A stretch of 64,000 bases of DNA from Thermococcus sp. Its GTDB lineage: Archaea > Methanobacteriota_B > Thermococci > Thermococcales > Thermococcaceae. How positions within the stretch are numbered: the stretch's first letter is position 1; every line of letters begins with the position of its first letter. Made by a program: the position numbers and the translations under genes. The stretch spans positions 62,001 through 126,000 of the forward strand of contig NZ_JACDNS010000002.1 in NCBI RefSeq assembly GCF_017656495.1, written 5' to 3'. Under the pieces are notes generated by a model. The model was not told the origin of the DNA. It worked only from the letters and a program-made list of their open reading frames with translations, and did no database searches. Positions 9,515 to 16,601 of the stretch are shown piece after piece.

Positions 9515-10891
9515 TCAATTACTTATTGTTTCAAGAACTGATGGGTCAATTGTCCACCATTCTTCAATTATCTCGTCACCTTTGAAGTAAATCTCGTATC
9601 TCAATGGGATTTGTTTTCCTTCTTCTGTTGTTACTATGACAATTGCTCTTATGCCGGTCATACCTTCTCCGCTCCTTGCAAGAGTTATATTGTATATCTC
9701 GACATTTGTTACGTTGTTTCCTGCCAAGAATTTGTTCCATGTTGCCTCTATATCACTTACTCCATTGTATGTGCCGTTGAGCGGTTCTCCTACCCAGTAG
9801 AGGGTTGAATTTTCAGCATTCTGCTGCATTAAAGCAGTTAGATTATTATTTTCTAATGCTTGCCAGTGTTTAAGGCCTCTTAATGAATAATCTAGCAGAA
9901 CATAGGCTTTCTTTACATTCATATAAGCCCTTCTCATATAGGGCAAAGCCTGTATATGCCCCCTAATTGGATGTCCATACTGCCAGCCTTTTTGATAGTG
10001 ATATTCTGCCAATGACTTGTATTCTTCTACTTGGGGCATTGTTGCATTTGTTATGTTGTACTGAGCAACACTCTCGTATATTTCATTGAATTTTTCGGTG
10101 TATCTGTTGTAAAGCATGTACCAGATGTAGTTCAGCATGGCGTAGTCAAAATATTCAACTTTTCTCTGAGGTGTGAATTCGAGGTTGCTTGTAATAATCT
10201 CTTTAAGTAGCTCTCTCCAATCATCTCCTTTGTATTTTGCGCTGTACTCTAGGGTCAATCCTGTTGCAAAGACTAGTCCTCTCCCAAATGTATATGTAAT
10301 GGCACTCGGCTTGTTATAGTCTGGGTTTCCTTGGGAATAACTAACGTCTGACTGTACCATTATTATTTTTGCGTCCTCTGGGAGATTAATCAGATAACCA
10401 TGGCTGGCAAGGTTGCTGTAATACCAGACGTCTTTTTCTACGTGATAGTCATAGTTTGAGTATCTCTGGGTTATTTCGACTCCTCCTGGCAGGGGAGTTT
10501 TCCAGACTCCACCATGCCATCCCCAGTTTGCGGCATGCACTTCTAGTACTTTTCCTGCTTTGACGAATTCTTCAATGTCTCCCATTTCTGGTGCAAGCTC
10601 ATCATAAAATGCTTGAGTCTGATCACTTTCTATGATAATCAAATCGTATTTATTTATGAGATCTGAAGCAGTTAAAGGTGCGAACTCAGAAGATGAAAGA
10701 ACATCATATGGAACACCGATTTCATCTAACATGTCTTCAACAGCCTTTGAGTTCCAAGCGTCAACATTCTTCAACACTAAAACTCGCTGGTTGCTATAAT
10801 TACTTTGAGCAGAAACTTCTGAAAAACTAATAAATCCAACGTTACTCGCTAGAAATAAGAATACAATCACTAAACTTGCTATTTTTTTCAT
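9515..10891 (-). CDS. Secreted protein with GATase-like and NTF2-like regions
   Basis: A 458-residue exported protein. Residues 1-28 form a signal peptide with a typical cleavage region (SEVSAQS). Residues 35-230 look like a flavodoxin/glutamine-amidotransferase-like Rossmann domain (RVLVLKN, YDLIIIESDQT, GKVLEVHAANWG) without a recognisable catalytic Cys. A helical middle section follows, and the last 110 residues resemble a SnoaL/NTF2-like cone fold ending EEWWTIDPS. Many N-x-S/T sites suggest surface glycosylation. Domain names are inferred from strand patterns, and no function is assigned. It is monocistronic. Confidence 0.7.
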   Translation of the reverse strand: MKKIASLVIVFLFLASNVGFISFSEVSAQSNYSNQRVLVLKNVDAWNSKAVEDMLDEIGVPYDVLSSSEFAPLTASDLINKYDLIIIESDQTQAFYDELAPEMGDIEEFVKAGKVLEVHAANWGWHGGVWKTPLPGGVEITQRYSNYDYHVEKDVWYYSNLASHGYLINLPEDAKIIMVQSDVSYSQGNPDYNKPSAITYTFGRGLVFATGLTLEYSAKYKGDDWRELLKEIITSNLEFTPQRKVEYFDYAMLNYIWYMLYNRYTEKFNEIYESVAQYNITNATMPQVEEYKSLAEYHYQKGWQYGHPIRGHIQALPYMRRAYMNVKKAYVLLDYSLRGLKHWQALENNNLTALMQQNAENSTLYWVGEPLNGTYNGVSDIEATWNKFLAGNNVTNVEIYNITLARSGEGMTGIRAIVIVTTEEGKQIPLRYEIYFKGDEIIEEWWTIDPSVLETISN

Positions 10892-10980
10892 AAACTTCCC
10901 TCCAATTTCGACTGCTAAGCAGTTGTATTGCTTTATTCTATGCTCTTGACCTATTTTAGTAATGACAGATTACCGAATAA

Positions 10981-11739
10981 TTAAGAGAAGAGATTGTGTT
11001 CTTTCAACTCTTTCATGAGATTAGCAAACAATTTTCGTGAAAACTCAAGAAGATTAATCTCTTTTCCAAGTTCTTTTTTTAAAGAAGTTGCGTTAAGCTC
11101 TTCTGGGACTTCATTATTAATGTTCACACCTATTCCAAGTATAAGAAAATCGACCATATCAAGTTCCCCTTCAGCTTCAACTAATATCCCAGAAACTTTT
11201 TTTCCATTAATAAAAACATCTCCAGCTTGGCTAACTTGGGGGACTAATCCATATTCTTGAATAGTTTTGGCAACTGCACGGGATGAGGGGATCAAAATTT
11301 TCTCAATCTCTGTGAGCTTAATCCTTGGTTTTAAGATTACAGAGAAGTACAAGCCACCTTTTTGAGATATCCATGACCTTTTTAGTCTTCCTCTTCCAGC
11401 AGTTTGCTCTTCTGCAATTATAAAAGTCCACTTTTCTTCTCCTTTTTCAGCGAGCTCTTTGGCAACGTTCATGGTTGAATCAACACTTAAGTAATAGTAG
11501 GCTTTGACATCTAGCTCCCAAGGATAGGGCTTATTGGGCTCTTTTAAAAGTTTATATCCTCTATGTGTTGATTCTATCTTGTAGCCAAGCTCAATAAGTT
11601 CTTTTACATGCTTCCACACAGCAACTCTTGAGATACCTAGTTTTGTCCCTATTTCATCACCTGAGACAATGTCATTTTCGCGAAGGATCTTTAAGAGCTC
11701 TCTTTTTATTCTGCTATCCTTAAGCACTTTTCTTGGCAT
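10981..11739 (-). CDS. BirA-like biotin repressor with a broken ligase motif
   Basis: A 252-residue protein of the biotin-protein-ligase family. Residues 10-60 form an HTH_11 winged helix (SGDEIGTKLGISRVAVWKHV), which makes it a group II, DNA-binding BirA. The biotinyl-adenylate loop GRGRLKRSW is present at 115-123. The catalytic KWPND motif is replaced by SQAGD at 170-174, so the essential lysine is a serine. It probably senses biotin and represses rather than ligates. It is divergent from bioY across a 104-base intergenic region carrying paired GTTAACC boxes. ATG 11739 is preferred to GTG 11748 on spacing. Confidence 0.82.
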   Translation of the reverse strand: MPRKVLKDSRIKRELLKILRENDIVSGDEIGTKLGISRVAVWKHVKELIELGYKIESTHRGYKLLKEPNKPYPWELDVKAYYYLSVDSTMNVAKELAEKGEEKWTFIIAEEQTAGRGRLKRSWISQKGGLYFSVILKPRIKLTEIEKILIPSSRAVAKTIQEYGLVPQVSQAGDVFINGKKVSGILVEAEGELDMVDFLILGIGVNINNEVPEELNATSLKKELGKEINLLEFSRKLFANLMKELKEHNLFS

Positions 11740-11786
11740 ATTCCTCACTTAATTTTACTATGCTTTGAGTATTAAAAAGCATTTTC

Positions 11787-11814
11787 GTTAACCATAAAAA
11801 TTTTAAAGTTAACC
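11787..11814. promoter_or_regulatory. Probable operator/promoter of bioY
   Basis: GTTAACC occurs at 11787-11793 and again at 11808-11814, exactly 21 bp apart (two helical turns). The boxes bracket the TATA-like stretch ATAAAAATTTTAAA, about 30-50 bp before bioY. GTTAAC is self-complementary and resembles half of the bacterial BirA box (TTGTAAACC). A dimeric BirA-like repressor bound here would block TBP. The site lies between bioY and the BirA-like gene and could regulate both. Confidence 0.6.
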
Positions 11815-11843
11815 AAATAAATTGAGTTATAAAACACTGGAGG

Positions 11844-12368
11844 ATGGCTGGAATGAAGGCAAAGGATATTGCATACTCAGCTTTATTCGCGGCTTTAACG
11901 GCAGTTGGGGCTCAAATAAGCATTCCAATTGGGGAAGTGCCAGCAACTTTGCAAGTTCTCTTCGTCCTGCTCAGCGGGTTGATTTTAGGGGCGCGTTTAG
12001 GTTTTCTAAGTCAGTTGATATACCTTCTGATGGGCGCTATCGGGCTCCCAGTTTTTGCTGGATTTAAAGGGGGATTTGTTTACCTCTATGGTCCAACGGG
12101 AGGCTATTTGATAGCTTTCCCAATAGCTGCATTTTTGGTTGGTCTGATAAGTGAGAGATATGAGAATCTAAAAGGCTATATCTTGGGTTCTTTAATTGGC
12201 ATTGGTGTTATCTATCTCTTAGGCTGGCTTAGACTGGGTTTCTACTTTGGAGGAAACTTTGGGAAAGCCTTTGCAGTGGGTGTTGCACCATTTGTGGTTA
12301 TTGATCTGATAAAAGCTGGGATTGCTGTGGTGGTTGCGGACAGGGTGAAAAAATCTGGAGTTATTTAA
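11844..12368 (+). CDS. bioY: Biotin transporter BioY (S component)
   Basis: A 174-residue membrane protein with about six helices and the BioY signatures: GEVPATLQVLFVLLSGLILGARLG near residues 30-55, LYLLMGAIGLPVFAGF-type helix, and GPTGGYLIAF. It captures biotin and feeds it to an ECF module, probably the T/A pair at 7893-9442. ATG 11844 directly abuts GGAGG, so ATG 11853 may be the true start. Its last codon overlaps the convergent MobA-like gene by four bases. The paired boxes upstream suggest repression by the BirA-like protein when biotin is plentiful. Confidence 0.9.
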   Translation: MAGMKAKDIAYSALFAALTAVGAQISIPIGEVPATLQVLFVLLSGLILGARLGFLSQLIYLLMGAIGLPVFAGFKGGFVYLYGPTGGYLIAFPIAAFLVGLISERYENLKGYILGSLIGIGVIYLLGWLRLGFYFGGNFGKAFAVGVAPFVVIDLIKAGIAVVVADRVKKSGVI

Positions 12369-12970
12369 ATCTCCCCTCTTTCAATCTTTTTGAGTGTTTC
12401 TTCAGTGAATCTTAAATCAAATCTGCTCTTAACTTTAAAGAAGCTTAGCGTTACTTTGGGATTTCTCTTAGCAAGCTCTTCAATGCTCACTGTTTCGTAA
12501 TCCAGATATCCTTTAATACAGCTCAGCTTTTTCTCGTTTTCTGCCAAACAAGCCTCTAGTGCACTCTTTAATGCTTTTGCATCATAAAATGCATGTGTGA
12601 CCTCTAATGTTCCATCGCTCCATGATGGAATTAATGCTTCGCTGTCTGAATCTAAAAACAGCGTTGAGAGATAATTTACTAGAAAAGGCATTATCAGCGG
12701 CATATTTCCTTCAACAAGGAAGAATTCTCCAGAAGCTGGTAAAGCTTTGTAAAGCGCTTCGATTTTGTTTTTGGCTTTAACTTCAACGGGATTTGAGACG
12801 TGAAGGGAAAAACGCTTCAGCTGTCCCTTTCTTATGATTGTATAGACTTCATCAATCCTCTTTGCCATTCTGAGCCTTTGCTCAACTATCTTAACGAGAG
12901 GCTCTTCATTCAAAGGTATGAGATAGCTCTCCCAGCTTCTTTCTGGGAATGCTAAAATATAAGCGCGCAT
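12365..12970 (-). CDS. MobA-like nucleotidyltransferase homologue, degenerate
   Basis: A 201-residue protein with the overall pattern of molybdenum-cofactor guanylyltransferase MobA. VEGNMPLIMPFLVNYL corresponds to the GDMP-LI region, ALIPSWSDGTLEVTHAFY to the P-W-G-P-x-HALY region, and FFKVKSRFDLR to FFNVNTPEDL. The N-terminal LAGGxSxRxGxxK nucleotide loop is replaced by LAFPERSWESY, and the metal-binding Asp of GDMP is Asn. It probably no longer makes MGD. The longer frame from 13021 is unlikely, because a TATA-like TTTTTAAAT lies inside it and ATG 12970 would give a leaderless message. Confidence 0.65.
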   Translation of the reverse strand: MRAYILAFPERSWESYLIPLNEEPLVKIVEQRLRMAKRIDEVYTIIRKGQLKRFSLHVSNPVEVKAKNKIEALYKALPASGEFFLVEGNMPLIMPFLVNYLSTLFLDSDSEALIPSWSDGTLEVTHAFYDAKALKSALEACLAENEKKLSCIKGYLDYETVSIEELAKRNPKVTLSFFKVKSRFDLRFTEETLKKIERGEI

Positions 12971-15058: not shown

Positions 15059-16489
15059 CTAGTTTTCTTCTTTTTCGGGGTTAATATATAGCTCACCTAG
15101 GGATACACTAAGTTTACCAGATTCTTTAAGTTTCTGGAAAATCCGCTTAAACTCGTCCCATTTTTCTGGATTTTTCTTAAAATAACTCTTCAGAGCGTCT
15201 CCAACGTCGTACGGATAATGTCCATCCTTGTCTGAAAAGACAATGCTTATTTTCTCTACAATGTCTTCATCTAAACCTTTATATTCAATGTAAATTGCGG
15301 GCAATAACGATCTTTCATTTGCTATGTTAAAGCTATGTCCCTTAGGAACTATTACTTTGTCGAGTAAAACTCTTTTGAAAGTTTCAAAGAACTCATATTC
15401 CTCTAGCATCTTTATGAGTTCTGGCTTTCTCGATAATAACTCATATACCTCTAGAATATTCCAATCTGTGAGGGTATAAGGTATTCTTTTTATTAACTTT
15501 ATGCATTTATCGAGACTATCTTTTGGCAAATATGCAGGGCCCATCAATAATAACTCTAGAAATTGTGGAAGGACGTAAGGAGGTACTTCCTCTTTTTCCT
15601 TGAGTGCATTTTCTAGCAAACCAAGAAACTCTTCGACATATATTGGCCTTTGTGTTAAAATATCTCTCAGGCTTTCAGGATATAATCCTGCAAAAACTTG
15701 TATATCAATATCATCATCTTGGATAACATATTTGACAAGTTCTTCATTATACTTTCTATATTCAGGGCTTTCTCTAGAGAATTTTTGCAAGATCTCATAT
15801 AACTTGGCAATAACTCTATGCCGTGCCATTTTTGGCATATTCTTGTTTTTAAGTTCGTTGTTTAACATTTCCAAGAATCTTGAAAAAGATTCCACAGGGA
15901 TCGCCTGTAGAGCTTGATACAGTGAGGTGGCAATTAATTTGTCATTATCAATTCCAAACTTATCAAATATATCTATTAATCTATTTACAAATACCTCCGT
16001 TTCTCCAGCTATAGTTATCTTTGATAGAGCATCCAATACAAAGCCCCAAAGAGCTTCTACATGAGAATAGGAAATGTTGTAGTCTTTTCCATGGGCACAG
16101 ATATTCCGGTATTTGCGATAGGCTTTAATTAACGTAGGAAGGTCACTCGGGACATTAAATATCTTTTCGATCTCTTTTTTGTGTTTCTTATGTTCCTTGC
16201 GGATGTTTTCACGCAATATCACGTTTACTACATGGGAATCCCACAAATTTTCATCAGTAAACCATTCTTTTACTAACTCCCAACTTTCTTTGGAAATGCC
16301 CTGTGGACAATGCGGGATTTTCAGAAATCTTTCCTTTATCGCTGAAACAAAAAATAACCATCCCATAATATATGCCGCCCGGTAAGCTCCTGCTTTATAT
16401 GCAATGATAGACTCCAGTAATAATTCTTGAGAGTTTTCGTATTGTCTTCCTTTACTCTCAATCCACTTTTCAATTTCCAAAGGTCTCAA
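15059..16489 (-). CDS. Solitary HEPN-motif protein, candidate ribonuclease
   Basis: A 476-residue, almost wholly helical protein of unknown family. The N-terminal 150 residues look like a HEPN domain: a first helix with ESIIAYKAGAYRAAYIMGW, and then RNICAHGKDY at 128-137, fitting the R-x4-H active-site motif of HEPN ribonucleases with a Tyr three residues after the His-Gly-Lys-Asp. The remaining 320 residues are helical and unassigned, perhaps a sensor or repeat scaffold. The start is TTG 16489, preceded by GGGGGAAT. No toxin, antitoxin or nucleotidyltransferase partner is adjacent. A defence or abortive-infection role is inferred only. Confidence 0.68.
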   Translation of the reverse strand: MRPLEIEKWIESKGRQYENSQELLLESIIAYKAGAYRAAYIMGWLFFVSAIKERFLKIPHCPQGISKESWELVKEWFTDENLWDSHVVNVILRENIRKEHKKHKKEIEKIFNVPSDLPTLIKAYRKYRNICAHGKDYNISYSHVEALWGFVLDALSKITIAGETEVFVNRLIDIFDKFGIDNDKLIATSLYQALQAIPVESFSRFLEMLNNELKNKNMPKMARHRVIAKLYEILQKFSRESPEYRKYNEELVKYVIQDDDIDIQVFAGLYPESLRDILTQRPIYVEEFLGLLENALKEKEEVPPYVLPQFLELLLMGPAYLPKDSLDKCIKLIKRIPYTLTDWNILEVYELLSRKPELIKMLEEYEFFETFKRVLLDKVIVPKGHSFNIANERSLLPAIYIEYKGLDEDIVEKISIVFSDKDGHYPYDVGDALKSYFKKNPEKWDEFKRIFQKLKESGKLSVSLGELYINPEKEEN

Positions 16490-16601
16490 AATAATTCCCC
16501 CCTAGGGATACCTATTGTTGTGTAATCTTTGAACATAACAATATTAAAAGATAATGATGTCACAAGGAATTATTCAAATGAAAGAGGAAAGAACAATGAC
16601 T

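Follow-up and report, generated by a model that had tools for sequence, protein, structure and literature searches.

HEPN RNases are known defence effectors, and many of them work with a partner, be it an antitoxin, a small RNA, a CRISPR signal or a reverse transcriptase. Single-chain HEPN defence also exists, as illustrated by a one-protein CBS-HEPN system (PMC13092281). Here we describe a protein encoded in the window (the whole 64,000-nucleotide stretch of Thermococcus sp. DNA that was analysed), in which an N-terminal HEPN domain followed by a helical solenoid is predicted.

Three groups of described proteins have a related architecture. Lactococcus AbiA, an anti-phage protein, carries its HEPN domain and an alpha-solenoid on a single polypeptide, as is predicted for the window protein; however, AbiA has a reverse transcriptase and its HEPN domain is C-terminal, whereas that of the window protein is N-terminal (PMC11077055). 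HEPN-TPR proteins (LA2681, C6orf70/DUF4209 and others) likewise combine HEPN with helical repeats (PMC3710099), but the window protein has no HEPN or TPR Pfam model above cut-off, and its repeats look HEAT/ARM-like. Table 1 of the HEPN survey holds TPR fusions in several families and, within that table, no HEAT/ARM-like tail (PMC3710099). DS-11, from the DefensePredictor work, is a single-gene HEPN effector with a regulatory domain, in which HEPN residues are needed for defence (PMC13092281); we liken the two by description, although the regulatory domain of DS-11 is CBS and that of the window protein a predicted solenoid. HEPN and helical repeats in one chain are thus already known, and the combination with HEAT/ARM-like repeats is a variant.

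Other systems share the nuclease part. The best Pfam match of the window protein is Abi_2/AbiD/AbiF (PF07751), with which it has an RNxCAH-type motif in common, but the match falls below the gathering cut-off (20.3 vs 25.6 bits; E 0.00074; residues 101-135, motif included), and no abiF RNA was found where we searched. AbiF is kept in check by a small RNA, and its toxicity depends on the R and H of its motif RNQCAH (PMC12373285). HEPN-MNT pairs (HepT/MntA) share the HEPN fold and a motif of the R-x4-H type; the window protein differs in its predicted solenoid tail. No nucleotidyltransferase partner was recognised by eye beside its gene, and no MNT nucleotidyltransferase family recurs in the neighbour clusters of the 42 bacterial loci. 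Csm6/Csx1 also have a HEPN fold and a second, regulatory part, but the models place HEPN first in the window protein and predict a helical second part, with no CARF Rossmann domain.

Gene, motif and predicted fold

The open reading frame that the earlier note had put forward was recovered at exactly its coordinates, on the minus strand and with a product of 476 aa (Table 1). The ribosome-binding site GGGGGG lies seven bases before its TTG start, and orthologues 85% and 69% identical to the window protein keep the TTG start with a G-rich site before it. The dN/dS of the window gene is 0.07 and 0.08 against these two orthologues and 0.24 against a 34% identical copy, values that are rough since synonymous sites are close to saturation. 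These low ratios indicate that the ORF is a gene under purifying selection. Promoter-like sites were not in excess (7 vs 6.7 in shuffles), and terminator-like sites numbered 3 vs 1.4 in shuffles. A short direct repeat near both gene ends was set aside as within chance by a rough estimate.

Table 1. Positions in the window of the gene, its predicted domains and the elements before it
Feature	Position	Strand	Details and basis
CDS, HEPN-solenoid protein	15059..16489	minus	476 aa; TTG start codon at 16487-16489
Predicted HEPN domain, residues 1-160	16010..16489	minus	Predicted model; best VIA-align rows are HEPN entries
R-x4-H motif RNICAH, residues 128-133 (R128, H133)	16091..16108	minus	R, N and H identical in 45/45
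Predicted HEAT/ARM-like alpha-solenoid, residues 161-476	15062..16009	minus	Full-length model; generic solenoid matches
G-rich ribosome-binding site GGGGGG	16497..16502	minus	Sequence; similar site in two orthologues
A+T-rich TATA-like element TTTTAATATT, possible own promoter	16540..16549	minus	Similar stretch in upstream alignment of the four carriers; function inferred

The R-x4-H motif by itself is weak evidence. Shuffling the window protein 20,000 times produced it in 33% of cases and the stricter RN-x3-H in 1.7%; among the 52 window ORFs of 150 aa or more, taken from all six frames with spurious ones included, the two patterns occur in 12 and 1, respectively. The motif is significant because of its conservation across homologues. 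All 45 aligned rows (the window protein and 44 homologues) have the same R128, N129 and H133, although some rows are near-identical to each other (L026/L028, L006/L031). Residue 131 is C in 43 rows and residue 135 K in 44, and E26 is E or D in 43, with gaps in the other two. Loci that are broken or cut by a contig end (L032, L034, L040, L041, L049) were left out, as was L114, the same gene as L046; L115 and L116 were aligned from their first methionine, so that part of their N-terminus is absent.

Many of these loci were found with a pattern containing the motif itself, which is a source of bias. Thirteen of the 44 homologues were found without requiring it (3 archaeal, 6 of 16 plasmid records, L109 and L115-L117), and R, N and H are kept in all 13. 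When viral contigs were scanned with an alignment that stops short of the motif, 9 loci were recovered, 8 of them already known and one new (L109), and all 9 carry it. The HEPN survey defines the HEPN superfamily by R-x4-6-H with a polar residue (N, D or H) after the R (PMC3710099), and RN-x3-H is present in 45/45 aligned sequences. The earlier note had read RNICAHGKDY as a match to the R-x4-H motif and had named loss of R and H across homologues as a reason to drop that reading; neither residue is lost in any of the 45.

An AlphaFold2 model of residues 1-178, built on 35 sequences, reached a pLDDT of 92.9 and a pTM of 0.87. Its best VIA-align match was 2hsb (Z 10.1, 3.7 A over 119 residues), followed by 1ufb (8.9), 2jpu and 2q00 (both 8.5), 4nqf (7.8), the human sacsin HEPN domain (7.7), 1wol (7.7) and 1o3u (7.1), with HEPN toxins at 6.3-6.9, Csm6 at 6.5 and AbiV at 6.4; helical folds match promiscuously, and a Z under about 13 can reflect mere arrangement in helical bundles. 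Seventeen of the first 22 rows are titled HEPN, Csm6 or AbiV. One of the 22, 3c18 (Z 5.7), is a nucleotidyltransferase-like protein, and row 23 is a designed protein (Z 5.4). Foldseek against the PDB gave no E of 0.001 or better with either model, and 1ufb and 2hsb headed its list for residues 1-178 at E above 0.001. We take 1ufb to be a HEPN structure. Both 2q00 (2jpu being the same target) and 1jog stand in the table of the HEPN survey (PMC3710099). On these models, residues 1-160 are predicted to form a HEPN domain. This is in line with the assignment in the earlier note, and the confident match to a non-HEPN family that it had named as a reason to abandon the assignment did not appear, the best structural matches being HEPN proteins.

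The full-length model comprises 27 helices at a mean pLDDT of 82, and its confidence dips at about residues 260-350 (block means 54-76). In this model, residues 161-476 form a stack of helices without strands. Structural matches of this half include transportin 3, CAND1, the PP2A scaffold and Pumilio (Z up to 9.6); we do not read these as kinship, the matches being generic for helical repeats. When the full model was compared with viral models in Foldseek, all E-values stayed above 0.001. The helical character noticed from the sequence is confirmed in the model, and the half that had been left unassigned can now be described as a predicted HEAT/ARM-like solenoid. In the 45-row alignment the mean frequency of the top residue is 0.55 in the HEPN half and 0.38 in the solenoid.

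Profile searches placed the protein in no named family. Nothing in Pfam exceeded the cut-off for the window protein, whose list comprises four matches at E up to 10 (HMMER filters drop weak ones) and contains neither the LA2681 nor the C6orf70 model. Abi_2 was matched by 3 of the 10 members of profile A1 (E up to 1) and by 1 of 31 members of profile A3 (E up to 0.1), another of the 31, or the same one, matching the HEPN model PF05168 at E 0.018. Weak matches to Pfam models such as YonK, Tad5 and NCD2 were rejected, being below cut-off in the window protein and each found in one or two members. NCBIfam gave one chance-level match (E 9.5). PADLOC 2.0.0 (2023), whose models presumably include ApeA, gave 0 families, both for the window protein (E up to 10) and for the 10 A1 members (E up to 1). 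Matches in PHROGs were weak, one of them being to an abortive infection family (E 0.0015, residues 100-146). In the PDB sequence search, Dandelion-hepn 9wx2 appeared at E 0.0013 with A1, was absent with A3 and fell to E 0.71 with A4; because the match was unstable between profiles, we did not use it as evidence. A retron chain at E 0.18 was likewise not used. A literature search yielded no description of this protein family in the excerpts it returned. The family is unnamed in the Pfam and PADLOC copies searched; its predicted catalytic domain is ordinary, and the combination with a predicted solenoid is a new variant.

Homologues and bacterial neighbourhoods

The family is widespread, mainly bacterial, and mobile. 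A plasmid search returned 16 records at E up to 1, all from Bacillota and 12 from Enterococcus, and the homologues of 6 of the 16 were fetched. With an alignment of plasmid and archaeal members as query, 28 genome loci were found in Bacillota, Bacteroidota, Chloroflexota, Planctomycetota, a deltaproteobacterium and others, together with loci on 8 predicted viral contigs. Single-protein queries gave no match in genome contigs or viral contigs, probably because the automatically chosen peptides are poorly conserved; three queries gave none in 50,697 phage records. In the order of G115 (Sutcliffiella), at least 9 of 397 genomes have a match when the best few candidates per genome are scored, 3 of them already in the query and two broken (G352, G366). 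Four of 200 genomes match in the family of G120 (Hymenobacter), two already in the query and one broken (G552). The fourth match, in G585, spans 27 residues of what looks like a different HEPN protein. Broken copies, split or with several stop codons, were also seen at L034, L040 and L041; such copies are often seen for costly defence genes.

Bacterial context was assessed over 42 loci, broken copies included. Genes of mobile elements are recurrent: of the 42 loci, 11 have a tyrosine recombinase family in their fetched flanks, 4 a resolvase family, and 5 (L015, L016, L039, L042, L043) a small-protein family that we take to be an ArpU-like phage regulator. In L044-L047 the gene lies between Phage_Mu_F and XkdF protease genes (neighbours called by Pfam in L044 and by BLAST cluster in L045-L047), and the HEPN proteins of these loci are 33-55% identical in the four pairs computed. 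In L048 the gene follows a phage integrase. The prophage contig of L044 also has a match to the BsrG type I toxin-antitoxin RNA at 15819-16069 on the minus strand.

Defence genes adjoin several loci, among them those for a TIR protein (L028), an NgoPII restriction enzyme (L018), AbiJ-NTD3 (L024), an Eco57I-type protein on a plasmid (L008) and GmrSD (L034, itself a broken copy of the family). At E 1e-5, 111 neighbour proteins from 30 loci matched 158 PADLOC families, compared with 33 for 110 control proteins, which came from 13 arbitrarily chosen regions in 13 of the genomes that carry these loci. This comparison is supportive only, as it counts families and not loci, a single methyltransferase may hit dozens of them, and the neighbour set had been thinned by hand. 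The families that can be named come from the first 25 of each list (158 vs 33 matched). Within three genes of L021 and L025, no defence gene was recognised by eye. Downstream of one Enterococcus plasmid homologue (L010), two DUF5677 proteins are encoded at 10316-12892.

The archaeal site and probable transfer

A presence/absence check, suggested in advance, gave a patchy picture: the gene is carried by 4 of 94 genomes of the window's taxonomic family, and the same 4 are the carriers among 115 in the phylum. In a tree of 43 sequences the four archaeal ones group as a single clade with support 0.994. In every carrier the gene stands next to the same peptidase gene, presumably an acylaminoacyl peptidase; the genes on the HEPN gene's side of it appear to be a DUF1931-like gene, a PEP carboxylase gene and a 218-aa gene.

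At this site in 40 non-carrier genomes, an anchor gene was located within about 7 kb in 33 and in none of the other 7, and the gap between matched ends runs from about 63 bp (L060, L085) to 3.9 kb (L063). By eye, a PIN-toxin-like ORF occurs in 11 of the 25 site intervals listed, and the one that was scanned matched PIN. Ten site ORFs from six genomes were searched against Pfam: AAA_23/SMC_N, HD, DUF4062 and PIN were above cut-off, PHP and MauJ below, and four ORFs had no match. Because many other site ORFs look like secreted or membrane proteins, we regard the site as variable and not purely a defence site.

The GC content of the gene in the four carriers is 0.352, 0.355, 0.349 and 0.327, compared with 0.405, 0.547, 0.540 and 0.511, in the same order, for the surroundings. 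Between the window genome and G048, which belongs to a different genus, the HEPN proteins are 85% identical and five nearby proteins 53-78%, and the synonymous difference is 0.60 for the HEPN gene and 0.77-0.92 for nearby genes. Since the HEPN protein exceeds its flanks in identity and its synonymous difference is lower, the gene appears to have been transferred between these genera, probably by recombination in the flanks. The archaeal argument for transfer, drawn from sequence comparison, rests on this single pair; in the other two pairs the HEPN protein is no closer than its flanks, identities being 69% for the HEPN protein and 61-81% for the flanks against G032, and 34% and 57-86% against G020.

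Proposed function and alternatives

We lean towards the reading that the family is a mobile, usually single-gene HEPN-RNase effector of abortive infection, in which the solenoid restrains the nuclease and/or senses the invader, and we hold it with moderate confidence. The earlier note had suggested that the gene may encode a single-gene abortive-infection or stress RNase, a reading of function that is probably right. In the mechanism we envisage, two HEPN copies would pair, and R128 and H133 from both chains would together make up the active site. The solenoid, which changes fast, would keep the RNase inactive and respond to a viral component; the freed RNase would cut host or viral RNA, tRNA being a frequent target of immune HEPN RNases (PMC13405049), and this cutting would stop growth or kill the cell before the virus matures. 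The architecture fits the proposal of the HEPN survey that, in Abi proteins, the domains fused to the RNase hold it in check until they contact viral components, with the solenoid in the sensing place (PMC3710099). If the family works alone, a single chain of about 410-480 residues would both sense and cut. One more defence gene, unnamed in the Pfam and PADLOC copies used, would then be common to the window's archaeal family, Bacillota, Bacteroidota, Chloroflexota and others.

A wider version of this proposal is more speculative, and we put it forward tentatively. The proteins might be an uncatalogued family of cross-domain, one-protein immune RNases whose fast-evolving solenoid itself senses a protein or nucleic acid of the virus and directly unlocks the N-terminal HEPN domain; temperate phages might use them against rivals, archaea might exchange them at one site, and ABC-three-component (ABC-3C) systems might have recruited them as a killing arm.

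Alternatively, the protein could be the HEPN toxin of a toxin-antitoxin or addiction module that maintains the mobile element and does not act in defence; the partner that keeps it inactive, perhaps a small RNA or small protein, would then have escaped notice. The resemblance of its RNxCAH to the RNQCAH of small-RNA-controlled AbiF (PMC12373285), its location on plasmids and beside integrases, and the PIN-toxin-like ORFs that fill the same archaeal site in other genomes are all consistent with such a module. We nevertheless consider it unlikely. No partner gene recurs in the 42 loci besides mobile-element genes and the ABC-3C operon (3 loci). Rfam, abiF RNA included, gave nothing for the window gene up to E 1, and none of the 8 bacterial loci searched (of 42) had an abiF RNA at gathering score. 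The gap upstream of the gene is 43-112 bp in the four archaeal carriers, which also argues against a module.

It is more doubtful still that the protein is an effector arm of ABC-3C (Lamassu-related) systems whose gene has spread on its own as well. The gene is directly 3' of CTD7-MC3-DUF3732 in L027 (gap of 41 bases) and in L029 (gap of 47 bases). In L022, which comes from another phylum, homologues of the three ABC-3C genes adjoin it in the opposite orientation, with one overlapping ORF, probably spurious, in between (calls by Pfam for L027 and L029, by BLAST cluster only for L022). However, these are 3 of the 42 bacterial loci, and none of the 4 archaeal ones is of this kind. The description of the gene as stand-alone in the earlier note thus holds as far as no partner recurs across the 42 loci, but not for the three genomes in which an ABC-3C operon adjoins it. 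Least probable of all is a non-defence host protein, whether an RNA-processing or stress RNase or a non-catalytic RNA-binding protein: strong purifying selection between close orthologues (dN/dS 0.07-0.08) and some neighbourhoods without recognised defence genes would suit it, but the patchy distribution (4/94, and at least 9/397 in the order of G115), foreign GC, prophage and plasmid locations and invariant motif speak against it.

If the abortive-infection reading is correct, the peptidase-side archaeal site could harbour more defence genes. Several of its other occupants are of interest in their own right. In genome G025 (L090) the site is filled by an ORF of 662 aa that matches nothing in Pfam at E 0.001. 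In G014, a 452-aa ORF at the same site (L081:265-1620, plus strand) has RNAIVHSK near its C-terminus and, judging by this sequence, is possibly another, unrelated HEPN nuclease. In G088, three genes share the interval L063:277-4136 and may form an unnamed defence operon: one for a PHP-like protein that stays below the Pfam cut-off, one for an AAA_23/SMC_N ATPase of 658 aa, and an ORF of 371 aa for which Pfam has no match.
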